Shown here one piece after another: positions 7,364 through 28,750 of a stretch of DNA of 28,752 nt. The notes under the pieces were generated by a model, which saw only the letters and a list, made by a program, of their open reading frames with translations, had not been told where the DNA came from and ran no database searches. The DNA is from a virus. Made by a program: the position numbers and the translations under genes. Each line of letters starts with the position of its first letter. Position 1 is the first letter of the stretch. Location: IMG/VR virus record IMGVR_UViG_3300021956_000062, positions 1 through 28,752 of that record; one strand, 5' to 3'.

Positions 7364-8392
7364 TTATAGTACCAAGGCTTCAACTAATTTGATGCCAGGG
7401 TCTTCGTTTGTTTCTAATGCTACTGCAAAAGGTATACCTCCTACATAGTCTGAGTTCATAACAGCACACCCGCAAGTATCTGCTACTAGATCTCTACCTT
7501 TAACTACCGGGCCTGTAACAAATACAGGAACTCGTCCTTTAAGTGCTACAAACACACCACCTTCTAATCCCGAGTTCATTTCGTATGCGGGGTTTGCCGA
7601 TATTACCCCAATGGCTCTGCGTCCGGGTTGGCAAGCAGTAATTTCGGCGTCACCGCCGATCATTACCACAGTACCTGTTGGGTATTCTGTGTCCGGCAAG
7701 TACTTTTCTGCCAAGTCAGCGTATTGTGCTGAAGTAGCACGGGCAAAGATTGTATTATACTGATAGCTTGAGCTACCGATATTGCTGACGTTATTGGCAC
7801 TAGGTGCAATATTACCTGTTGTTAATGTTGCTACAGTGGTAGTACCAGTGAAAGTTGGGCCCGAAGTTGATGCTTTATTATTAAATGTGCTCCAGTCAGT
7901 GCTACTTAGATATCCGTTGGCACTAGATGTTGCAACCGGCATACTAATGTTTGGATACGTGGCATTGCCAGATTTAACAATTGGGCTGGTTACCAGTACT
8001 GAGTTAACAACACCTGCTAAAACCGCAGACTGTACCGCACTAATTTGTGCGTCTTGTGTAGCGGCATTACTTTGTAAACTGGTGATCTGTCCTTGAATAG
8101 TGCTGATTGTTGAACTTTGGCTGGCTTGACCTGATGTTAATGTATTAATGGTTGTTTGCTGTGCGGCCGCATTGCTGGTTAATCCACCTAAGTTGGCTGT
8201 AATCGGTATTAAGCTGGTGTCAACAATAGTGCCAACAAAGGTGCTCATTGTTGCACCCGAAATTACAGACAGCAAATTTGACGAAGTTCCTACCGATACT
8301 ACTGGAAACAAGTAGTAGGGCTTATTCGCATCTGTACTGGCATTCGAATTGAATGACGTTGTTCTTGGTAATTCGCTAAATTTTATAGCCAT
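7364..8392 (-). CDS. Short tail fibre protein with a distinct N-terminus and YADLAE-type C-terminal domain
   Basis: A 342-residue fibre. Its N-terminus (MAIKFSELPRTTSFNSNAS) differs from the anchor of the other three fibres, so it probably attaches elsewhere on the baseplate. Residues about 60-125 are Ala/Ser/Gln-rich coiled coil with NAAAQ/NAATQ units like those of the paralogues. A short beta region (GPTFTGTTTVATL) precedes the C-terminal domain, which starts near 195 with NIGSSSYQYNTIFA and YADLAEKYLPD (Tyr224) and continues GVISANPAYEMNS and LKGRVPVFVTGPVVKG. The same domain ends the fibre at 10-1533. The start has AGGA 8 bases upstream, lying next to the stop of the giant gene, so translation is probably coupled. 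A receptor-binding role is inferred from its C-terminal position and sharing. Confidence 0.8.
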   Translation of the reverse strand: MAIKFSELPRTTSFNSNASTDANKPYYLFPVVSVGTSSNLLSVISGATMSTFVGTIVDTSLIPITANLGGLTSNAAAQQTTINTLTSGQASQSSTISTIQGQITSLQSNAATQDAQISAVQSAVLAGVVNSVLVTSPIVKSGNATYPNISMPVATSSANGYLSSTDWSTFNNKASTSGPTFTGTTTVATLTTGNIAPSANNVSNIGSSSYQYNTIFARATSAQYADLAEKYLPDTEYPTGTVVMIGGDAEITACQPGRRAIGVISANPAYEMNSGLEGGVFVALKGRVPVFVTGPVVKGRDLVADTCGCAVMNSDYVGGIPFAVALETNEDPGIKLVEALVL

Positions 8393-8396
8393 TTTG

Positions 8397-11300
8397 TTAT
8401 TCCTGTGTTAATATCTGTGAATTCTCAGTGATCATTATTGTATTTACTGACGGAGGATCATCTTCAGTACAATAGTATGATGTAATATCTGTCACCAATG
8501 CTGTAGCTCCTAATCCCAGGAATACCGCGGCGTTTGTAGAAGAATTTTGCAATCCTGTTGTTCCTGGAACGCCCAGCAATAATGCCGCGTAATCGTACCA
8601 GGCTGTAGTATCTTGGTAAATTTCCACGTTTGTTGTAATTCCGTTAATAGACGGAGCAGTAATTGTTACATTACCTTGAGCATTTACAGAGCCCAATATG
8701 GATATTGCGTTAGGTGCAACTGCACTAGATACACCATTAACATACAAAATACAGTTAGCATTGGCTGTTGTGACGTTGCCAGTTATAAATGTTACCGCAA
8801 CTGATTTAGCAGAAGTAACATTGCCGCGCACAACAGCATTTGCACCGCTGTAAAGCTGTGTAATGTAGTCACCGCAGTTGGCTGTAATATTGCCTGTTAG
8901 TGTTAGCTTGTAAGTTACATTATCAACTGTTGTAAATGTTGACGACGAACTATTAGATCTCCAGTAGTTAATCGTTGAGTTACTGCTAAACGAACTGTTT
9001 GACGAGATCAACGCTGTACGAGCATTCAGGTCTGGTATTCTTTGTAGTGCGCTGGCGTCATACACAACAGACCCAGACTCATGGAATTGGTTAGCTGTAC
9101 CTGCAACCCCACGTCTGATATTGGTTAGCGTGTTTGTTGCAGTATCGTTGTTCCAGTATGTGATTTTTTCACCACCGATAAACAATTCGCCGGGAATTGC
9201 ACGAACCAAATCAGGAACTGGCAATAGTGTCGAATCATTAACTGTGATGCTAGTGGCAGTTATGGATAAGTCGCCTACTAAATAGGCTGTAGCTAATCCA
9301 CTGATACGCAAATAATCATGTCCGCCACCAATATCTAAAAATTCTCTATAAGCGGTAATAGCACCATCGGGGTTTACTACCAAGTTGCCATAGACTTCTT
9401 TAGTAAAGACTGAAATATCTACACTTTCGTGTACTACACCCGGCAATAGCTCTTCTGGGGCGTGACTTGAATAGTAGTCAATGTAAGCACCACCGTCGAT
9501 ATTAATATCTTCGGGTCTGGTTCCAAGTCCTGTGTCAATGTAACGACTCTGAATTACAGTATCCAATAGTTCTTGGTCTGCTACGTTAGCGTCAAACTTT
9601 AAACCTTGAACTGTCACACCGGGATATTCAATGCCGTTAATATATTGTGTTAGGTAGAATTTATTAGTTCTAGTTGCCGATACTTCACGACCTAAAGCAG
9701 TATCTAAGTCTAGATTCATTTCTTTACGACTTGCTAGATAAGCAATAATACGATCGTTGGCATTGCCTGCTTGTTCACCAGTTAACAACTCAAATGTGTC
9801 AAAGTTAAAGTTAGGCGATGGACCTATGTTAGCAGATGGGCTGTATGCTTGACCGTTATAGGCAACAATACTACCAGCAACATAACTGTTGGCACTACTC
9901 CATATCTGTACATTGGAATCATAAGCGATACGATCAAACTTCAGCTTGCTATCAACTTGACGTACAGTTTTGTTTACCAAACGTGCGGCCGCCAATCCGT
10001 TGATTCCGGTGCCATTGATAGTAACAGTTGGTGCAGAGGTGTAGCCAGATCCAGGATTTGTTACGGTCACAGATCTAATTGTTCCGTTGCCTAACCAAAC
10101 TGTGGCATTGGCTGTTGCACCAGTACCGCCGCCGCCGGTAATCGTTACAGCAATATTTGATCCAGCCAAGTATCCGGTACCGGCATTGCTGATTTCAATC
10201 GATCCCACTTCAAAGCTATGATACTTGTTCCAGTATTGATACTCTGGTGTAACATTCAACAATGTTGAATCTATGGTTCTTTCACCGCTTGGAGTACGAT
10301 ATGCCGCCAGCGTCTTGCTGTACAAACTTGGTAAATCAAAGTCTGTTACGTTGCTACCAACTGTGTCAGAGCCAGTGTAGTCAACAATGTACTCGCGAAC
10401 AATAGTTCTGTAAGGCTTAACTTCTTCAATATACTGCTGATAGTACTCTTGGTTGTCAAGAACAAAGCTAGGTGGCTGACTTAGCTCACGCAGTTTATGG
10501 AACACATTGATAAAGCTGGTTTTAAATATCCAATCAACATTAACTTGTTCTGTTAAAATATAGTTAACCAATACAAAGAACAATTTGTTAAACTCGTCGC
10601 CTAGCTCGTTGATAAAGATATCGTCTCTAAGAGCTATCAATATGTTACGAATTTCAATACTTGGTGTTTGATCAAAACGCACAGTATCAAAACGATCTTC
10701 GTCGTAGCCCATTTGTCCTGCCGCTAAATCATACAGGGTAGATTTAAGTTGGATTGTTCCGTTTTCGATTCCAACTCGTTCTACTGTTAAGTCATCTTTA
10801 ACGCGATAGATACCAAATTGGCCGCCATCGTCATAGTTAACACGAATTATTTCTCCAGCTTTTAATGTCAAGGCCGCAATGTCCTTGTATGCTGTTACGG
10901 TGTAATTTAGTCTACCAGTTGGATCATAGTCGCTGGCATACCAATCAACTTTATCCCAGTACAATCCTGTATTAAAATATTGTATACGATATGTTTGGAA
11001 TTCTTTGTTGCTGTCTAAGCGATAAATGGTCCATAATCCACTGTTGGTACTGTCGCTGGTTACTAGTACTCGGTAACCTTCATCAATTTCTGTAGTATCA
11101 ATGTATCCAACTTCTTCCACCGCCGGAACAACTTTATCATATTCAGTACTTGGAGGAATAGGATCTACGTTTGCTAATCCCAACAAACTGTATTGATAAA
11201 CAATAGGATACTTAATTAGCACACCGTTGACATACTTGACAAAGTTTTCAACTGCTTTGGCGCGATTGACTACCATTGTTTGTCTTGGTCTAATGTCGAT

Positions 11301-14300
11301 ACCAATTTGATTAACGGCTGTTAGTGTTGGGTCTGGAACAACTTGTCCCATCATGTCAATGCCCGACAAACTGTCAATTAGTTTATCGATGATACGTGCT
11401 GGGATTGTACTCTCTGGGTCGTTCTCATTGATTAGTTCATACTCGGCGTGTACACTATTTTCGTTACGTAATTTTTGGTAGTCAACGTGCAATACTGTGT
11501 CCGACGCACTTAGATATTGTTCAATGTTTACCAATGCCAAGGCATTTTGTTTCATTACATAGGCATAAGGAATACCTTGTAGCTGTGGGTTTTCTATTAT
11601 ATCTTCTAAAACACTTACACTGAAACGCTTGCCTGGTGCCGCATTTTGTTTCTTAATGACCCAATAGTAATATTTAGAAACAATGTTTCCGCTGACTACA
11701 GTGGATACTGTAACATAGGTATCGTAAAACAGAGGTCTTCCGTCACCGCCATTGTTGATGTACTGAACTGGTGGGTAATCACTTTCCGTCCACTCACAGA
11801 CAACAATTCGACTACCGGGGAATAACTTACCCCAGTTGTTAGCACGGTAAACTAAATCGTCTTGTTCATAATCAATATATCTTAGTGTAGATAAATTCCA
11901 CCAAATCTTACCAACCTGACGTTCATTCCAGTGGTAGCTTTGATTTACTACTCGAGAAACACCAGCACCAGAGTTGTATGTCGCTGATCCAGTGTTGTAG
12001 ACCGCAGGATCTAATGCTGTTTTGTAGTCAATATCTTGTTCAGCAATACCAAGAATCTTGCCTTTGGCAGGATCAATATAATCTAAACTGGCCAAGATAA
12101 GCTGAGTAGTTTTATCGTAAACAAACATCTTATTGACATTGTTCAAATCTACTTTGTCAGTTTGTGTTCGTGTTACATTCCAGCTTGATACATAATCTAA
12201 GTTTGTGTAAGCATACACGCCACCGGCGTTAGTGGCTATGCTGTCATCGCCCGGAGCACCAATTAGTATCAAGTCCTTGTTAATGTCAATGCTAGTTCCA
12301 AATTGGTCCCCAGACTTTAACGCTGTGGATTTAATATGCTGTACATAGCTCATTGTTCCGGTATTTGTAGTACCAGTATTGGGATCCGTTAGCTTTTCAT
12401 AAACATAGACCGATCCACTAGATCTTATGGTGTCTATAATTCTAGTAGATGATTGATCAAATGTTGTTGTTCCTGTGTCAAGTTCAGACAAGTAATAAAC
12501 ATCGTCGCCTATGCTACTGATTAACAATGTTTCTGTTTCAGGATTATATTTTACGCTACTAGCAAACCCTCGACCAATCGAGCCTGCGGGATGTACGATT
12601 TGTTGATCTAGTTCATAAACAGAAATACCTGCCAGTGACAGGAAGTTAGACCCATTGGATCTAATAGACAATTTACTATTCTCTGTTAGCTTAGAACTGT
12701 TTATGGTTATAAATCCGTTAGATGCAACTGCGGCTGTGACCATTGGGATTTGTGCCGCGTTAATTAAACTTGCACACACATCAGGTTTTGCATATCCTGC
12801 TGGTGTTTCGACCCTATCCCACCCAGTTGTTCCTGCGGGTACAGAAGCATATTCTACGTTAGCTGATACCAGTGCATCAGCTAAATCTACATAATAGCTA
12901 TCAATATAAATGCCGATATTACTGTTAAATGTAAGTCCATTATTTTTAATTGATGCTATAGTATAGTCGGGGTCGCTGGTTGCTATAACACTACCTAATA
13001 CTTTTCCTGTTTCTGAGTAGCGATATACTGCACCAACTTGTCCGTTGGACAGTATAGTACCAGGTGCAGAAATATAAACAGTAGATGAATTAATATGATC
13101 TATTGCAATTTGGCTACCAAATAAGTTTCCACTTGCTTGGTTTGGCTCAGTAATTTTTTGCACTAATTCAAATTGATCACTTACAATCTTAACTACTTGA
13201 CCCAATGTCAACGGCGTGTTAAAGCGCAGTATGGCGCCGGCGGTGTTGTAAGCCGACGATGATTGTAGTGCTCCGTCAACATATACTTTGGCCAATGGGC
13301 CAATGGTTTGTGCAAATGTATAACTGTTTTCAAGTACTGACTTGAATGATTGTTCAAACAGTCGATACACATATACTGCACCGGCATTACTGTTTTGTCC
13401 CGGAGCACCAACAAATAACTCTTGTCCGTAGTCAGATGTCTGAATAACTTCGCCAAATCTGTCACCAGAAGAAACATCCGCAGGTATAATAATTTTGCCT
13501 GTATTTTTATAGAATGGACGCTGTACTATAGATACCTTGGTGTAAGGATCATCGGGCGGTCTTATGAAAGTTACCACGTTACCGCTAACAGAAAAGTCTA
13601 TGTCGAGCACATAGTTTCGGTATGTATCGCTAATTTCAATAGCCACATTACCATACGGTGTATAGTTTAATGTATATGTATTAGATACTGTGTCAGTTAC
13701 ATAAGTTATAGTGTTAGACTTAGATGTAACGTTACTTTCATAGTGATATACATAAGCTGAATTTTTACCAGGTACGCCAACATACAACCAATCGTTGTCA
13801 CCACTGATTGCTACGGCGTTACCAAAGTAATCGCCGCTGGTAGGCGACACGTTGGATCTAATAATCTGTACAGTTGATGTTGTTAAATCGTAAACATACA
13901 CATAACCTTGATTGCTGTTACTTGTGGGTGCTCCAACAGCCACAGTATAGTCCGAAGCCGACATAGAAGCGCCATACGAACCTACTGTATTGGCACGTGG
14001 ATCAAATCTGCTGGTCTGTGTTACATTATTACCGGATCTAGAGAATGTTCTAACAGTTCCTGTTGATCCATCGCTGTTGCTGTAAGCGGGCATACCAACA
14101 AAGAAGTTGTTGGCTAATTTGTTAGAAGTAATAGTAGTACCAAATCGAGCATTTGACAATGCAGATTCATCGGTGACTAATTTGGCTTTATTCCATGCTG
14201 TAGTTTTTTCGTATACTGCCCATTTACTGTCTGCTGTTGCAGAATCAACCCATAGTTTGTCGCCATCTTCCCATCCATTCAATGGGATAATTCCATTAGC

Positions 14301-17300
14301 TTCTATCAGATCTGTTAACCTAGCGGGTTGTAATTTATAAAATACCCCGTAACCATCAATGGTTTTTAAACCTTTTATTAAAGGCTCAGATGGTTCGCCG
14401 GCTAGTAAGTCAGTAGTTCTTGATATAACTTGTACGCTTCGGTCGCCGTTAACTATGTAAACTTGATAGAACCCGTTGAATCTTTCGTCGAATGCTTTGA
14501 TAGCAAAAACATCCCCCGCAGACATATTGTGATAGTCTGAGAAATTTACGGTCATCAAATTATCGATATCATAGGTTAAGTTTGTTACATTTGTTTGTGT
14601 TTCAGTAATTCTGTATACAGACCATTCATTTATATAATTCTTTGCTACCCAAATGTAATAGCCTGGGCCAACTTTAGGCAACACAGAATCTAAGTCAGCA
14701 AATGTGTCAAAGCTGTATAGTGTTACGTCAACGTCTGTTAGATTAACATAGCCTGCTGTTTCAACATCATTTATATTTGTTGTTGTGCTGTCTTGGTTAA
14801 AGAATAAGTTTTTGCTAACGCCCGGCGGCGCTTTATACAAATCAACCGGGTGGTATCCAAGTACACCGACTTGGCTATCGGGGTCGCCGTCGTCTAAGAA
14901 TTCAACTATAGCAGGATTTGTAGTTACCACAACTTCGTTAAGTTCTAATTCTACAATTTGATCGCTGACTGTTGCTCCGTATTCGCCAACACGCAATGCC
15001 CACTCTTCATAAATGTCAATTTCACTGGTCAGATCGTTAGCACGGGCGTTAGTTAATCCAGTAATTGCGTTCAGGGTGCCTTTTTCTTTAATAAACCCTT
15101 GATAGAATTTAACCTGGCTGGTTTCATCAAGACCAAATTCGCTTAGGTAAGGACGCTTACGGAATCCAATTAAGCTGGTACCGTAACCCTCAAAAGTTGA
15201 ATCTGCTGGCAAATTATCAACATCATATATTTGTTGTAGTCTTGTTGCATTGTAAGCAAAGTTGGGCAACAATCCAGTTTTGATGTCTGTTGTACTAATT
15301 AATCGCCATTGTCCATCTTGGCTAAAGGTTGACGATGCTGATATATTGGTTAGTGCTGTATAGTAACGTGTTTTATACTGAACAATACTGCCCATTAAAT
15401 AATCAACACCAGGTTGCCATTCATCAACTTGATCGTTGTTGTAAACAAATCCCGGTGGATTAAATGCGCCGGTCCAAGATCCAGTCTTGCTACCTATTAG
15501 TTTTAGTCGGAACTGTCTGTTACCTAGCTCAGGTACATATAAAATGTCATTGAAAACTGTAACGTTGTCGAACAATATAGCATGTTCATACTGCACAACA
15601 GTTAAATCAGCTAGACAAATTGTTTGCCCACCTATCGTTTTAAGTGTAAATTTGTTATCAGTTCGTATTTCTGTAAATTGTGTATTCTTAACAAAATTAC
15701 TATTTTGATCAAGAATCTTTGTGCCGCCGGGGCTGTTTTCAATGTAAGAAATTACACCATCGGGTTGTACGTTTGTAATTTCATCAAATACCGGGCTCAG
15801 TACAATAATGCTACCTGGATTCCACCCTTGTTGACTCCAAGTTAAAAATTCCTTTGCACTTAATACCCAGTTACGAGTCTCGCCGAGATTGTCATCTTGT
15901 TTATCAAACTTAAATCCCTGTGCTACAAGATAGCGGCCATACCCTGTTAAGAAATCAACAACTTCTTGCGTAGTGCTAAATTCATAGCCGTACGGAACGG
16001 TTAACTTAACAGGCTGGTAATCTTTATAAATTATACCACGAGATTTTAACGCCTGGACAATATAATAATTGTTATTGGCTAAACTGGGTATAACGGTAAA
16101 GTAAGGACTGTTTTGGTTGTAGCCATTTACAGTATAACCATTTTCTGTCTTTTCGACTACTACAGCACTATACACAGCCTTACGAATTGGTGTGCTTTCA
16201 TTCAGTCTGACGTTATAGTTTTCTGTTGGAATAATAATACTATTATTAGTATTGGTTGGACTGCCCTGCTCTGCCAGTACTTCAATAAACTTTGTGTCAG
16301 TGAAACCACCAACTTTATAACCAAGCTGGATATCTACGGTGTCTAAATATGTACGAATAGTTGTATTAGGATCTATGCCCAAGTTTAGCACATAATCTCT
16401 AACCCAATTTAAGTAGCCTGCAGATCTGACAGCAGAGCCATTGGTGGTATCACCATTGATAACCACAGTAGTAGGTGTAATGCGTTGACGAGTTTCGCTG
16501 TTAACTAATTGGTCGATTGTTGTATTTCTGTAGTATCTATCAATATTAATCAAGCTACCGAAGTAGTACCCAGGTTTGCTTAACGCCAATGCAAATTGTA
16601 GTGCGTATGGGAAAAAGCTACTAGTGCGCCAGGCAAACTCAGCGGGGCCTTGGTCACCAACGCTATAACTGGCGTTGGCTTTTAGACTGCTAAATGTTGC
16701 GGTAGCCCATTTTTCAGGACTTAATAAATCACCGTAGTCGTCAACTGGAATAATATTTGATAGTCCCGGACGAGCAAAACGCAAGTCGTTGCCAGCACGA
16801 GTGCCAGCATGAATATAGCCAGCCTCTAAATCTTCCCACAATAATGTATTACTACCAGTATAAGGAGCCGCGCCATATCGGTCTTCCCACCAAGTTGGCT
16901 TTTGCCCAAAACCTAGCATTTCCCACGGGTGTGTATTAGGACGATATGTATCAAAGAAATAATTAAAGATAGCTCGCCATGTACCTGGTAATTGTTCACC
17001 ATCAACACGATCTTTAAATTTTTTGTAATTCCAAGTCCATGGATTACCAGACTCAAAATAACTGTTGGTGCTATAATCAACTTGATTATCGCCTACCCAA
17101 CGTAAGAATCTACTGCTTAAAATCTGATTGAATTCTTTCAGTGAATAATCGGTGTCACGGAACTTGCCAGGCAAATGATCATACAAATCAAAGATATGTG
17201 TTTCATAATCAATCTTGATATTGTTGTAAATGCGTTTTTCAAGTTCTAACAGCAAGTCATCACGTATATCCCCAAATACTGGGGTAATACTGCCGTCGTG

Positions 17301-20300
17301 TCCTTGGATAACTTCTACTGGATTAATATAACTGTTATCTGTAAACATCGATGGCATGAACTTTGGATATAGTCCTAGCTTGCTTGGTGTTTCTGGAACA
17401 AAACATCCGTCAGTATCATAATATTCATCAATTTGAATTTTATCGCCAGCTGTTAAGGTAATGCTGTCATTGATAACGATGGCACTACGATCTTGAGGGA
17501 AAATAAAATCTTCACCTTTAATTAACTGTGTTCCGTTGAGATATACCAATACTGCTCGATTGCTTAGTGCAGTATCGTTAAAAACTTGAGTGATTTCGTA
17601 TTGCTTAGTAAAAGGATTAATTACAGTATAATTAATCACATTTTTGTTATCACCATAGGGTATCATATCACTATAATACCACGGGAACGTTTTGTTCTTA
17701 ATACTGTTGATGCTCTTTAAAATAGTATCTACACTACCAGCAATATTCTTAGGATCAATTTCATTTATTTTTGTTGCCAGCTCTAAGAACTTATTTTTAA
17801 ATCTAGAGTACTCGCGAGCGGCTAAATCTAATCCACGTACAAAATTTAAATTCTTATCTGTTAAGAAAATATTGCTGTACATAGCAGGGGCACTTTGTTG
17901 TAAAATGTTGCCGCCATTGCCTTTGTACTCAATGTCTCTAAGACCTTTATAATCTACACTACCAGCGTCTACTGCTAACTTAGTATTTTGTTTGATACTG
18001 GTTACGTGATTGCGAATTTGTCCCAGTGTTAAAGATGTAAACTTGGCATTTTTGCTATTAAAATCCAAACTGCTGGGTATTTCATAATAGCCAGTTTTGC
18101 TTGGTGTTTTACTGTAAATCAAAATATCAACTTTGTCGCCAGTTGACAATAAAGTATAATCAACTCTAACTGTTTGTCTTGCACCAACCAATTTGTATTC
18201 GTAACTGCTAGATTTTAGTAGTTGGTTGTTAACAAATACTTTTGTGTATGGTATTGCACTTTCAGTTTCCGGCAATACATCCACAGGGAAATAGTTAGTA
18301 GATCCATTGTAAGCATAGGAAAATATCTGATATTGTTTTGTATGCTCAATATTCTTTTTCCAAATATTTCTATTGTTATAGTTTGTTAGATCTATATTTT
18401 GTCTAAAGAAATTATAGTTAATAGGAACTGTAACAGTACTAGGTCCGCTGGCATAGGTAACTGTGTCAGCATCAAAGTTGTTTGTAAACTGAATATCACC
18501 GATGCTGTTAAAGTTTCTGTAACTTAATGGAAAACCCAATACCTTGTCGTTGGTACCGCTACCTACAGTATAAGAAAATATTGGAGTTCCTGCAAAACTG
18601 CTAACAGGGTAGTAAGCAACATTGCTCAAACTAATGCCGTTGCTGTCAACAACATCAAACATAGGTGTTTGGTTTACTGCTGTTTTAAGTTGTCCTTGGT
18701 TCCACGAAGTTCCATCATACCAAAAATTCAAGCCGGCATTGTTACCTTGAGTTACGTTAATACAATGCCCTTCAGCAACTGCATAGTCGTCGGCTAATAC
18801 TAAGTGCAAAGTTCTATCAGATGTTGTGCCACCTGTTGTGTCAATGACTTGCACCAAATATATAGAGTTTCTAACAGAACTGTCTGTATCATCGGCAAAC
18901 ACCACACGCATACCATCAGTGAATGTAATGCCACTGATAGTTACACTAGTGGCACCTCCGGTATAGGCACCCTCGACGGTGTTCATTGCATCTGTAATGA
19001 TTCCGTTGTTAACCAACAGATCAACAGGCAATTTGGCCACACGGCCTGCATTGTATAGTTGCAGGTGCCCTTCAAACTCAATAATAGGACGTTGGGCACG
19101 TAGTGTTTGATCTGGTAAAGCAACTGTGTTGTTGTAGGCGGCCGTTGCTGAAATAACATCAACGTGGAACCAACGATTGCTACGGCTCCAGCCATTGTGA
19201 TCAACGCTGTCCCGATTTATAGTAATATAGTCTGGTGTGCCGATTCCATTAACTGCATAAGCTTCTGGTGTAACTAAATCTGCCGCTTTTACAAGACTAA
19301 TACTTTTACCGACGCCTTCGACGTAGTACTCATTGTTCCAGTACATTTCGTCTGTGGTGGTTTCGTCAAATTGAATTTTTAAGCCATTGGTAAAGATAAC
19401 ACCGTTTGGACTTGTATATGACTTTTGTCCTAGGATGTCTGCGGCTACATCAATTTTATAACCTTCGCTGTCGACAATTTTAATAATGCCCGCAAGTCCT
19501 TCTGCAGATCCGTCTTGATAATAAAGTGTATCAAGAGTAGCAGTAACTTGTGGTACTAGTCTGTATAGACCAAGTCTGTCGAAGTAATATTCGTTGGTAG
19601 CATACTCAACACCACTCTTAACAAAAATGCGCTCGTTGGCGTTAATTACTTGGTCTGGTACCAGTATCACTAAGAAGTCGTTGTCCTCAATAGGTTGTAG
19701 TTCGATGGTCCACAAACTTCTACGATCCTCTGGTAATACAACTTCTCCAGCATCGTAATACTTTTCGTCAAAGCCTTCGAGCGGATGGTCCCAAATACCC
19801 GGTGTTTCCCAGAATGTGTCGCCTTGCTCAGGATTAATAAACGCCAATGTTTTTTTGTTTAATTCGGTTGTTACTCCATCAAATACATCCGGATATGTGG
19901 CCAACAACACACTAAGCATTTGATTCTGAACTTGATTGTATGTGTAATTGGTTACAAAGTCTACGCTGGCCACTTGTGGCATTTTGCTGTAAACGTCTTG
20001 TGCATCTTTCTTTGGTACATTGAATACCACTTGTCCACTGGCAGTTCCGTTATTATCAACTCCAAATATATCTCTAGTAGAAATATTAGATTGTAGTGCC
20101 TTTGTGCCACTAACACCAGGTTCGGTTTGAATCCAAAATCCGTTGGTTCCTTGGTCAACATTGAACTGATAACTACCACCACGTGCTAGTGTTATTACTG
20201 GATTCGCGCCGGTACCGCTACCACTGAAGTTATAACCATTGGCGGCCAAATTTCTAGTAACTGTGTATGTTTGCTCTTTGTCAACTACTCCGGCATAAAC

Positions 20301-20732
20301 TTGTACGGCATCGGGGCCATCGGGCAACCAGTAATAGTCGTTATAATTTGCAAATTTATCAAAATCAAACAAGCCATCAAATGTGTAGCTTTCGTTGGCA
20401 AACAGTCTGCTGTGATCTTTGGTGTTGCCGCCCAACACATCAATTTGCTGAATCAAATCAATGTATGTACTAAACAAACTCACTGTGCCGGCCGCTTTGT
20501 CTTGTACCACAACAGTGGGTTCAAGTTGATAATTTTGTCTTGCTGTTGTAGGCTCAGTTACATAATTGTCTGTTGTTTTATATGTAGGCGCAAATTTACG
20601 TCCAATATACCCATTGACACGTCGTAGGTCGGCTTCTGCTGTTAACTGATCTAAAGTTGCATTTAAGAACTTTTTGTTAGCATCAGTTTGGAATATTGCT
20701 GGTAAAAATTTTAATGTATTAGTTGCGGCCAT
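8397..20732 (-). CDS. Giant multidomain virion/baseplate protein (4111 residues)
   Basis: A single uninterrupted frame. The N-terminus ([20 protein letters not shown]) and a Trp-rich core at about 1150-1800 ([35 protein letters not shown]) resemble large structural proteins of T4-like cyanophages, as does [20 protein letters not shown] near 3735-3755. Other parts: fibre-type beta modules ([33 protein letters not shown]); two CBM5/12-like motifs near 1770 and 3610; seven FG-GAP-type repeats from about 2190 to 2840; a GxGY...GGGGTGATA module near 3515-3575; and a [14 protein letters not shown] module near 3880. It follows gp6 by 5 bases, in the place of T4 gp7 or P2 I, so it probably extends the baseplate wedge and carries sugar-contacting surfaces. 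The Shine-Dalgarno sequence is weak (GGA, 11 bases). The gp7 link is positional only; no enzyme motif was found. Confidence 0.85.
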
Positions 20733-20737
20733 TTAAT

Positions 20738-23700
20738 TTATATTCCGAGTTGTGCATTAGCTGTTGACGTTTGATTTAAGTGGTTAGCTGTAATTGATGC
20801 AATTACCTCAACGTTGTTTACTGTAGCCGCGCTGGTAATAATTTCATTATGATCTGCGTTTACTTGATACATTGCACCAAATTGGATTCTAGGATCCGCT
20901 GGAACTATGATGATACTGGCCACCAACGGAGTCAAGGCTTGGTGCAAGTATGCACTAAGCTCGGAGAAATAAAATGTTTCGCCAAAGTCCCAGTTATCGA
21001 TGTCAAAATAACTGTTAATGGCCGCGACCACCGCGCTCTTGATTTCACTTTCGCTGGTAACCAAGTTAGGGTTAGCCACTACTTTAAATTTAGCTTGTAA
21101 ACTGGTGTCTGCCTTGTCACCAAACAATGGTTTAAACTTAGCTGGGTTATAGACAATGGTATCACTCAATGCTTTGTAGTTGTTTAGTATACTGTAAGAA
21201 CTAGACAATTCTTCATTGGTTGGCGCAGTAGGTTCTGCTACTTTACCTGATGTGTCACGTATCCATGCCTGGTATCCAGTTGAATAGTCTTTGGTCAAAA
21301 TATACAAGTCCATGATGTTATTTGGACTTGGATCGATGCGACGGTTATTTGGGCTAACGTGCTGATATTGGAAGCTCAAACTTTGACGACCAGCATAAGC
21401 AATATAGCTGGTTAACGGATCGCTGATTACTGTTGGGTTTGTGCTAACTAGGCTATAAAATAGTCCAGGTCCAGCCGCATAGAATATTTGTCCCGGTACA
21501 TATGAGTCGCCGTGCAGTTTAATATCAGCTAGTGTTAGATAATCAGTTACAACTTCACTGCGATCAACAGGTATGGTGTTTACAAACGCATTATTGTTTG
21601 CATCAACTTCTTGCTTAAAGAATACCAATTTGTTTGTGGCGTTTACTTCAGGATTTACAACGGTGTCAAACAGGTCTGGGTCATCAGGTACTCCGTCGTT
21701 GTTACTGTCAGGGAAAGTAACTAATACACGAGTAGGATCTCGATAGCCATCACTGGACACAATATTTTCATATATTTGCCATACAATATTTTGACCTATT
21801 GCATTTGAGCTATCTGGTGCTTGATTAATCTTTAGCACAGAAATTTGGTCACGAAGTGTTCTTGCTAATTTACTGTCGTATACTTTAATGTTTGTGTCGT
21901 AATAGAACGTTGTTTCGGCTACACTTTCAAATACATAACTTAGGCCGCGACTTGTTACTGTAAATTGGTTATTGTTATAAATGACTTTAATTAACCAGCT
22001 GGCATCTAATGCACGACCTGTGGCATCACCGGCATTTTCTAAACTAAATGTTGCAGAATTGCTGATGTTAGTTGATGTGATAATTCTAAATGTGGCCGTA
22101 ACCAGATCGTATCTAATAGCAAAACTCTGATACGATCTAATTAACGAAGCCAATCGTGTTGGAGTAACTTCATCAGAGTACAAGCCCGACTTGGTATCTA
22201 CTGCAAAATCTGTAGCCTGTGTGGGGATAACTTTGCTGGCAATAGCCCCGTCGGGGATATGTTGATTTAATGTTATTTGTCGTGTTGTGGTATTGACTGC
22301 CATCACTGCGGCATAGATATAATTTTTCTCGCCTTGGTACTGTGCAGTTCCTGCCTTGATTGTATTTTGTGCAGAAAAGAAATATCCGCTAGGTGCAACA
22401 AATTTAATCATTGCACCTAAATTAATCATATTTCTATGTGACGTTAACGAAGCCAAACCGGTACCAATCGACAACGCTGTACCTACAGAAGTGGTAGTTG
22501 CTGGAGTAGACGCTTCCAGTTGCCCTGTGCTGGCATTTGTGACATTAGTTCGGCTGTTCCAATAAATTGGGCCGCCGGCATCCGTAGTTAAATCATAGCG
22601 AGGAGTCGTATTATATCTAAAATGTGTGAACTTCTCTTGACTTAAAATTGGTCTGATGCTGTCATATATAATTTCATTGACATCGCCGATGGTTTCAAAT
22701 GTGAAATTAAATGCATCATTTGAATTAGTATCTCGATATAGGTAACCGTCGTCACAGAAAATATTTGTGCTAGAATACTTGCCTGTTACATCCAAGACGT
22801 CTAGGAAGCGGCTTACACCACTGCTGGTACGATTTACTGCTTTAACCTTAACAACAGAATTAAACAAACTAAAAGGAAGAATGTTATAATCCTCACCGGT
22901 AATCATACGATTTTGTGTATAGTATTGCTGTGGGGCATTGGCACGTACATCTGCTAAACTTTCAGCGGCCGATGAGTTAGTTACTGTATATTGCAAACTA
23001 ACTGTTAATGTCATGGTTTCAATGCGACCTGTGCGGCTAACGTAGGCAATAGGAATGTTTATTTTTGACAACTCGTTAGGTGTTATCTTATAATTCAATC
23101 CGTTACTCTGACGATAGTAGAATGTAAAGTTGCCTTGTGGTACATTAGCGAACACCCCATCACCAAATATTAAATCAACTTGGTCGTTGGCACGAGTATT
23201 GATTTGGTAAATGTAACGGTTGGCTGTTTGACTGTAAGCAACGTTTGTACCTGCTACAGCCGGAACTTGAGTCCAGAACTGATTAGCCACCCCTTGAGCG
23301 TTTGTACCATACAACCAAGTGTCTGAATTATTGATGTTACTGAAGTTGATGTTTACAGTACGATTTGGAATGTTTTCACTTAGGCTAAAATCAATTTTGT
23401 TCAAAGAACCTTGTTTAAAGAAAACAAAGAAACCTGTGTTGTTGCTGTTGTTACCTAGATTGTCGTTTTGGTAAAGAATATTAAAGATTGAGCGTGGAAC
23501 CGGCGTTGGCTCGTAAATGTAATCTTTGTTTGTGGTTGTGGCACTGACTGCTTCAAACGCCATGGTGCGGTTTTCGATTGTGGCGTTGAAACTGTAAACA
23601 GGAGTTTGTCCTGGCACAATACTGATGCTGTAAGTATCAGTTTTAATATTATTAATTGTGGTGCTACTAGCGGGTTTTCCAATAACTTGACTGTTAACTA

Positions 23701-24190
23701 GCCCAGCATTTAGTATGGCGGTCATTTGCTCATACCAATTTTCGTTGGCGCTATCATTCCAATTAATAACTAAGTTGGTTAGGTCTGTGCCGTTGCTGTC
23801 AAATATTTGTTCAGTTGTACTAACGCTGTCAACTTTAAGAACACCCTGAGCGGCTACATTTCGTTTTGGGCTATAGCCCACTAAACGGCTTAATTTAAAA
23901 ACGCTGTCTTGGCGCTGTGCTGTGTCAATAAAGTTTTCGCGAGCATTTAAGTCTGCGCGAAATGCTAGACTTTGCCCCATAAAAGCAATAAGGTCAATTA
24001 GGGCAATATATTCACTGCTGTCTGTAAAATCATTAAAATCTTCGGGGTAAGTAGTACGCAAGTAATCAATCATAGTCTTGCGTAGGGTTTCAAAATCGTA
24101 GCTGGTAAAGTCAGCCGATTGGAAAGTCTGATAGATCTTGGTCCAGTCTTGTTGGACTAAAAGATTAGTTTGACGAGTAGTTAAAGCCAT
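20738..24190 (-). CDS. 6: Baseplate wedge protein, T4 gp6 / P2 J-like
   Basis: An 1150-residue wedge protein that would form the ring joining wedges around the hub. The N-terminal 120 residues carry the family signature: TSYDFETLRKTMIDYLRTTY, DFTDSSEYIALIDLIAFMGQ, then LAFRADLNARENFIDTAQRQ and RLVGYSPKRN. The middle is beta-rich and includes YRQSNGLNYKITPNELSKI and NRMITGEDYNILPF. An acidic DSNNDGVPDDPD loop at about 828-840 resembles a calcium-binding turn. The C-terminal part (SEIKSAVVAAINSYFDIDNW, FGETFYFSELSAYLHQALTP) is the usual end of J-type proteins. It is much longer than T4 gp6 (660 residues), as in other environmental T4-like phages. AAGG lies 7 bases before the ATG. The gene follows the gp25-like gene by 47 bases, a gap with a late-promoter-like element. 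Confidence 0.93.
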   Translation of the reverse strand: MALTTRQTNLLVQQDWTKIYQTFQSADFTSYDFETLRKTMIDYLRTTYPEDFNDFTDSSEYIALIDLIAFMGQSLAFRADLNARENFIDTAQRQDSVFKLSRLVGYSPKRNVAAQGVLKVDSVSTTEQIFDSNGTDLTNLVINWNDSANENWYEQMTAILNAGLVNSQVIGKPASSTTINNIKTDTYSISIVPGQTPVYSFNATIENRTMAFEAVSATTTNKDYIYEPTPVPRSIFNILYQNDNLGNNSNNTGFFVFFKQGSLNKIDFSLSENIPNRTVNINFSNINNSDTWLYGTNAQGVANQFWTQVPAVAGTNVAYSQTANRYIYQINTRANDQVDLIFGDGVFANVPQGNFTFYYRQSNGLNYKITPNELSKINIPIAYVSRTGRIETMTLTVSLQYTVTNSSAAESLADVRANAPQQYYTQNRMITGEDYNILPFSLFNSVVKVKAVNRTSSGVSRFLDVLDVTGKYSSTNIFCDDGYLYRDTNSNDAFNFTFETIGDVNEIIYDSIRPILSQEKFTHFRYNTTPRYDLTTDAGGPIYWNSRTNVTNASTGQLEASTPATTTSVGTALSIGTGLASLTSHRNMINLGAMIKFVAPSGYFFSAQNTIKAGTAQYQGEKNYIYAAVMAVNTTTRQITLNQHIPDGAIASKVIPTQATDFAVDTKSGLYSDEVTPTRLASLIRSYQSFAIRYDLVTATFRIITSTNISNSATFSLENAGDATGRALDASWLIKVIYNNNQFTVTSRGLSYVFESVAETTFYYDTNIKVYDSKLARTLRDQISVLKINQAPDSSNAIGQNIVWQIYENIVSSDGYRDPTRVLVTFPDSNNDGVPDDPDLFDTVVNPEVNATNKLVFFKQEVDANNNAFVNTIPVDRSEVVTDYLTLADIKLHGDSYVPGQIFYAAGPGLFYSLVSTNPTVISDPLTSYIAYAGRQSLSFQYQHVSPNNRRIDPSPNNIMDLYILTKDYSTGYQAWIRDTSGKVAEPTAPTNEELSSSYSILNNYKALSDTIVYNPAKFKPLFGDKADTSLQAKFKVVANPNLVTSESEIKSAVVAAINSYFDIDNWDFGETFYFSELSAYLHQALTPLVASIIIVPADPRIQFGAMYQVNADHNEIITSAATVNNVEVIASITANHLNQTSTANAQLGI

Positions 24191-24237: not shown

Positions 24238-24612
24238 TTAAGCGTAGGTAAGTTTTTGACTTTGGTTATTGAAATTCATCAGCAACACATCGCTTTGATT
24301 GTTGTTTATGTATGTCAAGTCTATGATCACTTGCAGGCCGTGTTCTAGCTCGTTTACGGTAACATTATTGACATTGACACGCGGATCGTAGTTAATAATT
24401 TGCGTAATATCTGTAACGATAGCTTCTTTAGTGTCATTGGTCAAGGGCTCAAACAACATACTCCAAATGATTGTGCCAAACGCAGGGTTCATTAGCTTTT
24501 CGCCTTTGCGTATGTTGAAATGGTTAATCAAGTCTTGTTTAATTAGAGCCGCATCGGTGGCTCTAAACTTTTTAGACTGCCCTTGTGTGCTGAATCCGCG
24601 ATATATTGCCAT
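24238..24612 (-). CDS. 25: Baseplate wedge / sheath initiator, gp25-like (P2 W-like)
   Basis: A 124-residue protein of the gp25/GPW family, which sits in the inner baseplate beside gp6 and templates the first ring of the contractile sheath. The core motif is clear: DLINHFNIRKGEKLMNPAFG followed by TIIWSMLFEPLTND, with the conserved Phe-Gly and Glu-Pro positions. The C-terminal half (NYDPRVNVNNVTVNELEHGL and a VIIDLTY strand) is the usual beta end. Length is close to the family norm (T4 gp25 is 132 residues). Only a poor purine stretch (AAGAAAG) lies upstream, but MAIYRGFST is a typical start. It lies between the spike and gp6, the same order as V-W-J in phage P2. Confidence 0.94.
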   Translation of the reverse strand: MAIYRGFSTQGQSKKFRATDAALIKQDLINHFNIRKGEKLMNPAFGTIIWSMLFEPLTNDTKEAIVTDITQIINYDPRVNVNNVTVNELEHGLQVIIDLTYINNNQSDVLLMNFNNQSQKLTYA

Positions 24613-24630: not shown

Positions 24631-27600
24631 TTAGATTGACTGTATCAGCGGATTCTTTAGCAATTCTGCCGCAGGCTTGTTGGGTTGTACATGTGGTGGA
24701 TCGCCTTTAGGATCAAATCGCCATAATCCGTATTTGGCCAGTAATCCCATTTGTTCCAATTCGCCGGCTTGTGCTGGCGCAATATCCATAGCGCACCCGT
24801 GTCCGTGAATACCAACTTTAGGGACAGGTCTACTCAGTGATCCGTACGGTGGTACATTCACTGTGGGTCTATCTGGCATGTGGCCACCGGCTTTTACCCA
24901 AGCATCATAAATTGCCTGCTGTTCGCTTGCAGTACGCACAGTACTAGATACTGTGACTTTCTTGCCAGTTTTTTGTTTGTAGTCTTGTGCCATTTGCAAT
25001 ATTGTATCTTTGAATGTAGACAATGCAACATCAAAGTGAGCTCTGTCGCCCGAACGAGCTGTAAAGATTAGTACATCATCGGGCTTAATATTAACAGTAA
25101 CTGGAGGTACAGTAGCCGCACCTGTCGGCGGGGTTGATGTGCTGGCTGTTGCAATCCTAACAGGAACACCTGTTGATGCTGGTTGTACTTGGCTTAGAAT
25201 ATCAATGGCGTAACGTCCACGATTATACACGTCGTGCGGAGTAGCTCCGGTTTTATCTTTACCTATATTCGCATGACGCCACTGTTTGGCATATGATACC
25301 ATAGCATTAACATCACTACCAAACAGTTGTGTTTCATCTCTAAAGAAATAAGCGGCATAAACCATGCCACCAGCAACACAAATACTGTCGTCAAAGGTAA
25401 TGCCGCGACTGTTAAACAATCTGCTCCAAGCATCTTTAATAAAACTTACCATGCAGAAATCTTGTGCTGTTTCTGTTTTTAAGAAGTCAGACAAGCTGTT
25501 GACTTCGTCTTTGCCAGTCCAAGCACCTTTTTGATTAATTGCATCTAGCTTGTATTTGTTTAGATAATCAGATTTGATATAGCCGTACTCTTTTAATAAA
25601 ATGGCATTTATTGCATATTTGCCAACTCTATCTGCTGTTTTATAGCCTATGTCGCCGCCACTTTCTGCAAAGCCTATTTCAACAGCCAGTGCTTTTTGTT
25701 GTTTGGCAGTTAGACCGGGTATACTGTTTTTCTCGCCAGGAGTACCTTTACCTATTAAGTCACCTTGGACTTGCAGTTGGCTTGTTGCCATTTTTTCAAT
25801 TGGTGCTTTTTTAGTGACTTCTTTACCAAGAGTGGATTGTAACCCCGAGTCGTCGTTCTCGTATCCGCTTTGTACAGGGTTGCCTGAACCGTCAGTGATA
25901 GTGGCTCCCGATCCCGACTTAATAGTATTATCATTTTTGCGTAGCCAAGCCCATTGTTCTTTAAGTTTTTTCTTGCAATCTACTGCTTTAGCGTGTGCTG
26001 TATTTGTGCCTTGTCCATCATATCTACCACGTCCAAGTGTAGGATCTTCAACCGATGCCCAACAGGCCGCTGTAGCAACCTGGGCTTGCAATAATGCGGC
26101 CTCATCATTTTGATCAGACCCATTTAAGTACTTGTCAATTGATGGTCTTGCTGATTTACACAAGAAGTTAACGAATAAGTAGTCTTGGAATTCTGCGGTA
26201 AATTTCTGTGAACCGGAGATATTTAATTTTTTCACTGCGGCAGTAAGTGTAATTGGAATAAGTTGGTATCTGCCAACAGCAAACAATCGTTTGTAAGGAT
26301 CGGGTTCGTTGGATGCTTGCTTAGATAAGATCTGATCTATAGTCATGTTCACTAGATCTATTTTTTCACCGCCCACTGTGCCTGTTCCCTTAGGAGGACT
26401 AGAACCTCTATTAAACGCATTATAACCTGCACTACCCGACTCAAATCCAGCAATCCAGTCGCCGAACGGTCCGGCACCTGCGGGGCTAGTTGAATTAGGT
26501 TTATTAGCAGGTGGTGCCACATCTGTACATATACCAGCAGTTGGTGCAACTTGAACATCTAGTGTAGGAATAGTTGTACTGCCATCGCTACCTGGTATTG
26601 GCATTTGCACTATAGGAATAGGGTCTGTGTTTCTAGGCCAAGGTTCATGGTCTGGAGCAACCGTAACAATACTTTCTAAATGATCCGGTGTGTTGGCCGC
26701 ATTGCTTTGATATAATTGTGTTGCTGTTTTTGTAGTCTTTGGCAGTTGATTTAGTTGTAGGAATCCGGGGTCGTTTACTTCAGCTACAGCACCATCGTTT
26801 AGTCTAATAAAATTGTTCCCAACTAATCGCAACTCGGTTTTGCTGGCTATCCCTAGGCCGCCTCTTGCTGTCATAGATAGAGAGCCAATTGAACCAATGT
26901 CGATTTTACCGCTAAAAGCTCGTAGACTATCAGCCGCACGTAGAGTCATTGTTGCGGATTCTAGTCCCAACTTAGATGTTGCTCTAATACGTACTTCGTC
27001 GCCTTGTATGTTAACATTTTGTTGGCTGTGTAGATTTAAATCACCGTCGGTGCGTACATTAAATCCCTTGTTAGCGTACATGTGAATTTGTCCGCTGTTT
27101 CCAAATTCCATCCATGCTGTACCGGTGTTATTGGCAATGTATAATACCTGTTCGCTGTCGTTCATTAAAATTTGGTGGCCACCGGCTGTACGCAGTCTTA
27201 TCAATTGGTCTACGCCGGCATCATCACCGTCGTCCATTACAAATTGATGGCCACCGACACGATATTTAGGCGTTGTTCGATTTCCAGTCACCGGGGTTCT
27301 ACCGGGTGTGCTAATACCAAACACAGAGCTAGGGGCATCTCGCATACTGCTACTGCTGACTGCACCACGCACTCTATCTGTGTCAAGTCCTTGATTGATT
27401 ATAATTTCTGCTTGTGGTTCGTGTATTGGCAGTTTATTAGTTAAAAAAGTTGCCCCCATGTTGGCTTTAACGTTTTCGTTAAATTCAGCCGACGGCAGGA
27501 ATGTGGGTTCAGCTCTATCTAGTGCGGCTTTTACTAAGTTGCTTGTTGCGCTGGCTTTATCAACGTTGTCGCTGTATCTACCTAACCCAGGCACCATGCC

Positions 27601-27990
27601 GTGACTCATGTTTGTTGATGTTACACAAGCAAACCAATAACCGCGGCCTGCTTCTCCGTTAACAAAACAACACAATACCGTATTACCAACGTCAGGGGGT
27701 ACCATCCACATACCATATGTGCTTTCTGTGCCGGCCACTGTATTGTATTGTGCTTTTTCAGTCTGAGTAGTATGCCCATAATACGGACTGGCGTAGTTGA
27801 CCCAGCGCCAATTGTTTGGGTCATTTTCGTTACCACCCATGTCGGCTATCCACACTCGTAGACGACCCAATCGCAGTGGATCTACATTTAACTTAACAAT
27901 GCCAGAGTATATACCTTTATCAAACTTTATACCCGGTGCAGAGTCTTGGTTATAACTACTTGGTACTTTACGGCCTAATCTTAAATCCAT
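24631..27990 (-). CDS. 5: Central spike (gp5/VgrG-like) with two lytic-transglycosylase-like domains and an M15 peptidase
   Basis: A 1119-residue spike that would puncture the envelope and degrade peptidoglycan. Residues about 25-125 are the OB-like gp5/gpV start (GIYSGIVKLNVDPLRLGRLR). Residues 245-400 show short alternating beta repeats (GGHQFVMDD, GGHQILMND, DLNLHSQQNVNIQGDEVRIR) of a VgrG-like needle. After a Pro/Thr linker comes a first muramidase-like domain (WIAGFESGSAGYNAFNRG, Glu517; AVGRYQLIP, 571-579), then a second (GFAESGGDIGY, Glu776; GKYAINAILL; AWTGKDEVNSLSDFL). The end (about 965-1110) is an M15-type zinc peptidase with HGHGCAMD (His1062, Asp1069) and DPPH (Asp1097, His1100), spacing as in T5 L-Ala-D-Glu endolysin. 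Enzymes lie after the needle, unlike T4 gp5. GAGG lies 8 bases before the ATG, over the upstream stop. Domain calls are firm for OB, needle and M15, less so for the glycan lyases. Confidence 0.9.
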   Translation of the reverse strand: MDLRLGRKVPSSYNQDSAPGIKFDKGIYSGIVKLNVDPLRLGRLRVWIADMGGNENDPNNWRWVNYASPYYGHTTQTEKAQYNTVAGTESTYGMWMVPPDVGNTVLCCFVNGEAGRGYWFACVTSTNMSHGMVPGLGRYSDNVDKASATSNLVKAALDRAEPTFLPSAEFNENVKANMGATFLTNKLPIHEPQAEIIINQGLDTDRVRGAVSSSSMRDAPSSVFGISTPGRTPVTGNRTTPKYRVGGHQFVMDDGDDAGVDQLIRLRTAGGHQILMNDSEQVLYIANNTGTAWMEFGNSGQIHMYANKGFNVRTDGDLNLHSQQNVNIQGDEVRIRATSKLGLESATMTLRAADSLRAFSGKIDIGSIGSLSMTARGGLGIASKTELRLVGNNFIRLNDGAVAEVNDPGFLQLNQLPKTTKTATQLYQSNAANTPDHLESIVTVAPDHEPWPRNTDPIPIVQMPIPGSDGSTTIPTLDVQVAPTAGICTDVAPPANKPNSTSPAGAGPFGDWIAGFESGSAGYNAFNRGSSPPKGTGTVGGEKIDLVNMTIDQILSKQASNEPDPYKRLFAVGRYQLIPITLTAAVKKLNISGSQKFTAEFQDYLFVNFLCKSARPSIDKYLNGSDQNDEAALLQAQVATAACWASVEDPTLGRGRYDGQGTNTAHAKAVDCKKKLKEQWAWLRKNDNTIKSGSGATITDGSGNPVQSGYENDDSGLQSTLGKEVTKKAPIEKMATSQLQVQGDLIGKGTPGEKNSIPGLTAKQQKALAVEIGFAESGGDIGYKTADRVGKYAINAILLKEYGYIKSDYLNKYKLDAINQKGAWTGKDEVNSLSDFLKTETAQDFCMVSFIKDAWSRLFNSRGITFDDSICVAGGMVYAAYFFRDETQLFGSDVNAMVSYAKQWRHANIGKDKTGATPHDVYNRGRYAIDILSQVQPASTGVPVRIATASTSTPPTGAATVPPVTVNIKPDDVLIFTARSGDRAHFDVALSTFKDTILQMAQDYKQKTGKKVTVSSTVRTASEQQAIYDAWVKAGGHMPDRPTVNVPPYGSLSRPVPKVGIHGHGCAMDIAPAQAGELEQMGLLAKYGLWRFDPKGDPPHVQPNKPAAELLKNPLIQSI

Positions 27991-28000
27991 TTAAATATCC

Positions 28001-28750
28001 TCATGCAAATAGCGTCGGTGGGGTAAACGTTTTATTTGTATCAACAAATTCGTCGTCATCATTGACAATGTCGGATTCTGGATCCGTTGACTCAGTGTCC
28101 TCAAAGTCATCAATGTCCACTTCATCGGCTTCCTCGTCGATTGTGTGCAGATCTTCGTATTCAGGATCTTCGTCGGGTTCATCTGTTTCTTCAGTCTCGT
28201 CCGGCTCTTCTTCCTCGTCATCATTGAGTGGTATTAACTCCTCGTCGTCTCCTTCTGCATCTACGTCTGTGGGATTGAAATCATCTTCCTCTGCATCGGT
28301 TCCGTCGGCTGGTTCTCTTGCGTCGGGGCTGGCATTGCTGTCCTTGGCCTTCATCGATTCATTATCTTTTCTATCCTTACCTTTATCAGCATCTTTGGTT
28401 GCGTTGTTTACTGCATCTGGCATACGTATTAAATCAACAACTTGCTCAAATTTTCCAGCTTGAAACACGTTATCTACAGTTAACATTCTGTATATGCCTG
28501 AAAACACACTATTGGCTTCGTACTTAGGATCAGTGGAGGGTGTTCCCTTGGTATCGTCCATATCTAGTATAGTGCGGAATTCTACTTTAGCCATTACTTC
28601 GCCATTGTCCATTGGTACGCTACCATTGTCTTTCATTATACCTAATGTGTTAATCTGTGTTTCGTATCCACCTTGACTGGGATTTGTATATATGTCATCC
28701 TGCTTGATTAATTCTGGGTCACCAACAATCTTTAACTTCAAGTTGAGCAT
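28001..28750 (-). CDS. Probable baseplate hub-type protein, C-terminal part, with acidic tail (partial)
   Basis: 249 residues can be read from the first ATG, but the frame is open to the window edge and no ribosome site can be seen. The start (LNLKLKIVGDPELIKQDDIY) looks like the inside of a beta domain, so this is probably the C-terminal part of a longer protein. Residues 1-110 include VFSGIYRMLTVDNVFQAGKF and VVDLIRMP, a pattern like the end of hub proteins of the gp27/GPD/Mu gp44 kind, which bind the spike. From about 115 the chain is highly charged and from about 145 to 240 mostly Asp/Glu, with almost no hydrophobics, hence disordered. It ends FTPPTLFA. Its place just before the spike matches the Mu order hub, spike, gp25-like. 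The hub call is inferred. Confidence 0.6.
   Translation of the reverse strand: MLNLKLKIVGDPELIKQDDIYTNPSQGGYETQINTLGIMKDNGSVPMDNGEVMAKVEFRTILDMDDTKGTPSTDPKYEANSVFSGIYRMLTVDNVFQAGKFEQVVDLIRMPDAVNNATKDADKGKDRKDNESMKAKDSNASPDAREPADGTDAEEDDFNPTDVDAEGDDEELIPLNDDEEEEPDETEETDEPDEDPEYEDLHTIDEEADEVDIDDFEDTESTDPESDIVNDDDEFVDTNKTFTPPTLFA

Follow-up and report, generated by a model that had tools for sequence, protein, structure and literature searches.

The textbook picture of how contractile phages open the cell wall is gp5 of T4. This spike combines an OB domain, a needle and a tail-associated lysozyme function, with a single lysozyme that sits between OB domain and needle and that the needle keeps blocked until release (PMC3004832). 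In evolved VgrG proteins, which serve secretion and in which a gp27-like part is fused to a gp5-like part, effector domains follow the needle and some of these are lysozyme-like (PMC3235180). A phage spike with two wall-enzyme domains after the needle, CBB_240, was published in 2017 as different from T4 gp5 (PMC5259590). Here we analyze a gp5-type spike gene (24631..27990) in the IMG/VR virus record IMGVR_UViG_3300021956_000062, whose 28,752 bases are referred to as the window. We consider it likely that the 1119-residue product serves as the central spike in a jumbo-type phage that is related to T4 and has a contractile tail, and that it bears three wall-enzyme modules after the needle: a lambda-lysozyme-like module, an SLT-type module and an M15-like module (modules 1, 2 and 3).

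An intact spike gene among baseplate genes

The gene is an uninterrupted open reading frame (ORF) that starts with ATG and runs from 27990 to 24631 on the minus strand, as do all window features described below. The N-terminal part of the protein matches PHROG 13211 ('baseplate hub subunit and tail lysozyme', E = 1.2e-31) and PF04717. Directly downstream are the adjoining gene for the baseplate wedge protein gp25 (24238..24612; PF04965, E = 2e-12) and then a gp6-type baseplate wedge gene (20738..24190; phrog_10646, E = 8.6e-288); thus, the spike gene is part of a T4-type baseplate operon. When the first 420 residues were compared by tblastn with 50,697 phage records, matches were found in 60, nearly all from jumbo T4-related phages and including PA5oct, Rak2-like phages, Atu_ph07, Phosso and SCTP-2. 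None of the 50,697 records covered 80% of the length of the whole protein. The core is homologous to spikes of PA5oct-like and Rak2-like phages that are annotated as 'baseplate hub subunit and tail lysozyme'. Two of these relatives are virion proteins by mass spectrometry, namely PA5oct gp350 (record note) and CBB_240 (PMC5259590).

The OB domain occupies approximately residues 26-130 (27601..27915). It matches PF04717 above the gathering score (E = 6.7e-6, best stretch residues 87-122), and a weak phmmer match in the PDB links residues 48-129 to the central spike of Anabaena phage A-1(L) (8kea_D). The needle, which resembles a triple-stranded beta-helix, spans approximately residues 245-410 (26761..27258). 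Hydrophobic autocorrelation in this region is strongest at period 8 among periods 2-17 (z = 3.4 versus shuffles), and the octapeptide repeat length is that of the gp5 needle (PMC3004832). Consistent with this assignment, the core is homologous to spikes of the 121Q/Rak2 type, which match DUF2345. A linker of ~90 residues (411-502; 26485..26760) with a conserved HEPW motif (448-451) separates the needle from module 1, and the predicted local distance difference test (pLDDT) is low at the start of a model of residues 490-1119. The core shared with related spikes ends near residue 433, and all modules lie after residue 503.

Three modules in a conserved order

Module 1 comprises residues 503-690 (25921..26484). 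Glu517, Gly573, Tyr575 and Gln576 are invariant in the alignment of orthologues. Glu517, the putative catalytic acid (codon 26440..26442), aligns with the Glu of lambda R and of other relatives, and GRYQ (573-576) is common to module 1 and lambda R; by hhalign the two match over the C-terminal part (E = 3.4e-5). The module 1 profile returned chance matches only against PDB sequences, and a comparison of folds was required. In VIA, run on a model whose local confidence here is moderate, the best match to the predicted fold is the lysozyme domain in the hub of A-1(L) (8kea_A, Z 8.3), and lambda lysozyme also matches (3d3d, Z 7.4, and 1am7, Z 7.0; 136 residues, root-mean-square deviation (rmsd) 4.5-4.6). 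Motif alignment and fold comparison together support a predicted lambda-type (GH104-like) lysozyme fold with its catalytic Glu and GRYQ.

Module 2 comprises residues 742-940 (25171..25767), and its profile likewise gave only chance matches against PDB sequences. Modelled alone with AlphaFold2 (AF2) on a deeper alignment of 23 sequences, it reached a pLDDT of 85.0 and a predicted template modelling score (pTM) of 0.84. The best fold match in VIA is Cj0843 (Z 10.7, 127 residues, rmsd 3.1), followed among others by MltC (Z 9.1), MltE (9.0), Slt70 (8.5) and phiKZ gp144 (8.0); nearly all of the top 50 matches are lytic transglycosylases or other enzymes of the lysozyme superfamily. The family phrog_27932 is matched by module 2 in 13 of 13 members. 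Glu776 (codon 25663..25665), the putative catalytic acid, falls at Glu64 of MltE in an offset calculation from the aligned ranges, made without residue-level alignment, and PDB titles ('inactive mutant E64Q') imply that Glu64 is catalytic. In 13 orthologues, the most distant at 57% identity, neither Glu776 nor Ser777 varies. The model of the module is thus an SLT/GH23 lytic-transglycosylase fold in which Glu776 takes the catalytic position.

Module 3 comprises residues 962-1119 (24634..25107). The SxxR, Hx6D and [D/E]xxH set is complete: S1016, R1019, H1062, D1069, D1097 and H1100 are invariant in 13 sequences (the last four at 24691..24807). VanY (PF02557) is matched in 13 of 13 members with a best E of 1.7e-5, the window copy itself scoring E = 5.9e-4 and 20.1 bits, below the gathering cut-off of 25. 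Fold matches in VIA include BaLdcB (4mph, Z 6.0), LysB4 (6akv, Z 5.2) and further M15 entries. The closest sequence relative that we found is the Campylobacter phage peptidase gp24 (hhalign, E = 2.3e-14). These results support an M15-type fold and a predicted zinc peptidase. As a separate observation, the closest relative of module 3 lies within an 887-residue 'endolysin' of Campylobacter phage NCTC12673 (L054:2591-5254) encoded near a baseplate hub gene, and this protein may be structural rather than an endolysin.

From IMG/VR we collected nine full-length spikes, including that of the window (the others from L002, L003, L004, L011, L012, L039, L044 and L048), and five partial ones. All three modules occur in identical order in nine of nine full-length spikes, with 36-89% identity per module. 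Over 11-13 aligned sequences, E517, G573, Y575, Q576, E776, G790, Y792, H1062, D1069, D1097 and H1100 are invariant. With nine full-length spikes, one order and invariant key residues, the arrangement is beyond chance. All three-module spikes come from metagenomic contigs and none from a cultured phage, which might suggest that the fusion is an artefact of metagenomic assembly. This explanation is in effect refuted by nine intact ORFs on different contigs with the same order, together with the partial ones, and by extensions that in most members are 52-86% identical to each other.

It could also be supposed that the protein is an endolysin joined to the remnant of a structural protein and serves lysis at the end of infection, and indeed endolysins, too, often have M15 or lambda-type domains. 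The OB and needle core is intact, however, the gene stands among baseplate genes, and the protein is kept as a spike in all relatives. We regard a role in lysis as highly improbable.

A first-pass annotation of the window, made from the sequence, had proposed a spike at 24631-27990 with three modules beyond the needle in the order of an evolved VgrG. The minus-strand ORF, the PF04717 match and the period-8 needle bear this out, and all three modules are C-terminal to the needle. The residues that it named (E517, GRYQ at 573-576, E776, GKYA at 790-793, H1062, D1069, D1097 and H1100) are where it placed them, and its VgrG-like needle at 245-400 coincides with the period-8 repeat. It had called the segment with Glu517 muramidase/transglycosylase-like, which agrees with the lambda-lysozyme fold, and its M15 motif set is supported by the VanY matches, the invariant motif and the similarity to M15 enzymes. 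Structure prediction, which it had suggested as a check on the two Glu-containing segments, returned lysozyme/SLT folds for both (Z 7.4 to 3d3d; Z 10.7 to Cj0843).

Variation of the C-terminal end in the spike family

Profiles of the core and of the modules were run over all collected loci, and Pfam was used for public phages. Seven C-terminal states (A-G) were seen among related spikes. State A (15 distinct spikes in the tree) is the core only, with an SLT-like domain lacking its Glu in the next gene, and state B is the core followed by SLT. State C, that of the window spike, is the core followed by lysozyme, SLT and M15. The core is followed by a lysozyme and a trypsin-like domain in state D (Atu_ph07, and Phosso by eye), by M23-like and GH24 domains in state E (Rak2-like phages), and by SLT_3 in state F (XacN1, RAS14). 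In state E, XaC1 has no Pfam enzyme match and is assigned by kinship, and 121Q has the GH24 match only. State G (PA5oct, SCTP-2) is again the core only. In some lineages the conserved core ends near a HEP[WF] motif, and HEP[WFD] is also found at the end of the shared core in Atu_ph07, Phosso and state B spikes.

In a maximum-likelihood tree of the core, state C forms one clade (support 100/99), as do states A and E each, and state B is not resolved as a single group. States A, B and C group together with support of only 85/95, and because of several long branches the deep order is uncertain. Most simply, an SLT module of old standing in this group would have been joined by the lysozyme and M15 modules in the ancestor of state C. 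The arrangement is thus no isolated oddity; it is one state in a spike family with interchangeable ends, and CBB_240 is a two-enzyme precedent (PMC5259590).

Several individual loci add to this variety. In the state A relatives (L013-L034, e.g. L026:7442-9049), the gene between spike and gp25 has an SLT-like stretch without the catalytic Glu, and it occupies the position of the fused modules of the window lineage. A T4-type spike, L068:2494-5214, has an OB domain, an SLT domain, the needle and a C-terminal stretch with an M15-like motif, giving putative enzymes on both sides of the needle; its M15-like region was seen by eye and through a match to an endolysin PHROG. The last domain of the Atu_ph07 spike (L006:5962-8556) is a trypsin-like serine protease domain (PF13365, E = 6.1e-17). 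By term search, the Atu_ph07 paper calls gp699 a lysozyme and names no protease for it (PMC6102473). The Phosso spike (L008:5977-9108) ends in a trypsin-like domain by eye only, and has an unusual Gly/Ser-rich linker of well over 100 residues between the core and the lysozyme-like domain.

How the modules may act

By analogy with T4, three copies of the spike would form the needle, which tail contraction would drive through the outer membrane into the periplasm (PMC3004832). Each chain would bear the lambda-type lysozyme, the SLT-type domain and the M15 peptidase after the needle, replacing the single pre-needle lysozyme of T4. Since the needle precedes the modules in the chain, the latter would be the first part to enter, or would hang from the tip on the ~90-residue linker. 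Glycan chains would be the target of module 1 and stem peptides that of module 3, and glycan would be either cut or bound by module 2. With as many as nine modules on each tail, the peptidoglycan could then be opened at both sugar chains and peptides. In this scheme we infer the trimer, the tip position, the timing and the enzymatic activity of each module. The first-pass proposal that glycan cutting and peptide cutting are delivered together at the tip is upheld as far as folds and order are concerned; its three activities are unproven, and the tip position is read from sequence order alone.

Several observations weigh against this scheme. The model of residues 490-1119, from which the fold matches of modules 1 and 3 were obtained, has low overall confidence (pLDDT 53.7). 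Foldseek with this 630-residue model gave no match at E < 0.001, and its re-examination with VIA was informative for modules 1 and 3 only. The fold matches of these two modules are supports, not proofs, and since confidence in the model is low, the zinc site of module 3 is argued from motif conservation and moderate Z-scores.

For module 2 the difficulty lies in the motifs. Motif II reads GKYA (790-793) or GRYG in 13 of 13 members, so that the Gln is lost (Ala793 in the window spike), and a Tyr stands where relatives have His. Owing to these two losses the enzymatic activity of module 2 is uncertain. Of the earlier claim that the Glu776 segment is a glycan-cutting domain, the SLT fold and the Glu stand and the cutting is in doubt. 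The module could instead be a pseudo-enzyme whose SLT fold is kept as a peptidoglycan-binding or spacer domain, leaving two activities rather than three. In its favor, GxYQ is kept and the His is present in the catalytic-looking relatives (phiM9 gp5, L066, L068 and L072), and decay does occur in the family, as seen from SLT-type domains without their Glu in the state B spikes L074/L075 and in the gene beside state A spikes. The invariance of Glu776 and Ser777 speaks against it. So does the Tyr that canonical SLT enzymes have at the third motif and that the window lineage seemingly has too. We regard the loss of activity as a serious possibility, albeit one that we do not favor.

The linker also weighs against the scheme, as it could let the modules fold back. 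The modules might lie along the needle, or might be cleaved in maturation, working from its side or once released. The length of the linker and its conserved HEPW would fit with this, as would T4 gp5, which is cleaved and has its lysozyme beside the needle (PMC3004832), and the smooth, sharp tip expected for membrane puncture. On the other hand, VgrG effector domains are carried C-terminally, after the needle (PMC3004832, PMC3235180). Nor did a search for a PAAR-type tip protein find one in the window and 12 related contigs, 13 partial records that may all be fragments. We consider such a placement rather unlikely and retain modules ahead of, or hanging from, the needle tip as the preferred arrangement.

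More generally, we tentatively suggest that the spikes of jumbo T4-like phages could be a modular delivery platform, in which the OB-needle core takes interchangeable C-terminal cassettes. The window lineage would be the fullest case, with nine wall-cutting modules per tip opening glycan and peptide bonds together, perhaps for an unusually thick or cross-linked wall.

Other genes in the window

Upstream of the spike gene, the window contains the 3' part of a structural gene (28001..28750), recognized from the upstream ORFs of relatives. There the product has ~1000 residues (1050 in L002 and 997 in L004) with an acidic C-terminus, and the L002 copy matches the virion structural protein family phrog_11190 (E = 4.9e-40). 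On the other side, a giant ORF adjoining the gp6-type gene (8397-20732) encodes a 4111-residue virion protein (phrog_10938). A glycine-rich protein (3431-5575) has a Hint-type domain match below the cut-off (PF14623, E = 1.3e-4) and a weak PA14 match, and is possibly a self-splicing or self-cleaving tail protein. The 164-residue protein encoded at 2940-3434 has phrog_1128 as its sole strong match (E = 3.6e-21); its SHCEF and MCSEFC stretches are reminiscent of permuted papain-like folds. Two tail-fibre-like proteins (10-1533 and 7364-8392) have matches near the C-terminus to the self-cleaving chaperone of the Peptidase_G2 type (E = 9.4e-7 and 0.017, respectively).

Relation to described spikes and hubs

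The window spike shares the OB domain, the needle and presumably the tail-associated wall-degrading role with T4 gp5, but not its arrangement: no lysozyme stands between OB domain and needle, and the T4 lysozyme belongs to another family than the modules found here. Like evolved VgrGs, it has its effector-like domains after the needle. It differs from them in that its chain starts with the OB domain and is encoded in a phage baseplate operon; there is no N-terminal gp27-like fusion, as the protein starts ~25 residues before the OB homology and the upstream gene is separate. Sinorhizobium phage phiM9 gp5 has the same SLT-type domain as module 2, but before the needle and with GxYQ intact. In gp5 of cyanophage ACG-2014d, no C-terminal peptidase was seen by eye. 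ACP17 gp131 was considered as a precedent for a spike with module 1 and was dropped, having no OB or needle match.

The hub gp15 of A-1(L) combines three wall-enzyme domains in one tail-tip protein, and two activities have been shown; its endoglucanase and peptidase domains are active against host cells in vitro (PMC10966104). It thereby sets a precedent for a single tail tip that carries several wall enzymes, and as in the window spike a domain of the lambda-lysozyme type comes first. In A-1(L), however, the domains are in the hub rather than the spike, and the other two (by eye, RlpA-like and M23-like) are unlike modules 2 and 3. Kinship of module 2 with the endoglucanase domain, and of module 3 with the peptidase domain, was considered and rejected, as neither pair showed similarity.

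Closer to the window spike, Atu_ph07 gp699 and the Phosso spike have the core, a HEPF motif and then a lambda-lysozyme-like domain after the needle, with a trypsin-like domain in place of SLT and M15. CBB_240 and its Rak2-like orthologues (121Q, GAP32 and RaK2) belong to the same spike family by core homology, and carry an M23-like and then a GH24 lysozyme domain after the needle. These are other enzymes, two rather than three, and the lambda-type lysozyme, SLT and M15 domains are absent. In the phage-record collection and the open-access papers searched, the module set and order of the window spike were not found in cultured phages. Thus, we conclude that the combination and order of the modules appear to be new, whereas multi-enzyme spikes and hubs as a kind are already known. 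If our reading is correct, many jumbo phages use a layout other than that of T4 gp5, with the enzymes after the needle, and enzymes have been swapped between jumbo phage lineages as type VI secretion swaps effectors. The spike ends would then be natural cassettes with which to test which enzymes entry needs and how an enzyme-laden tip crosses the membrane.

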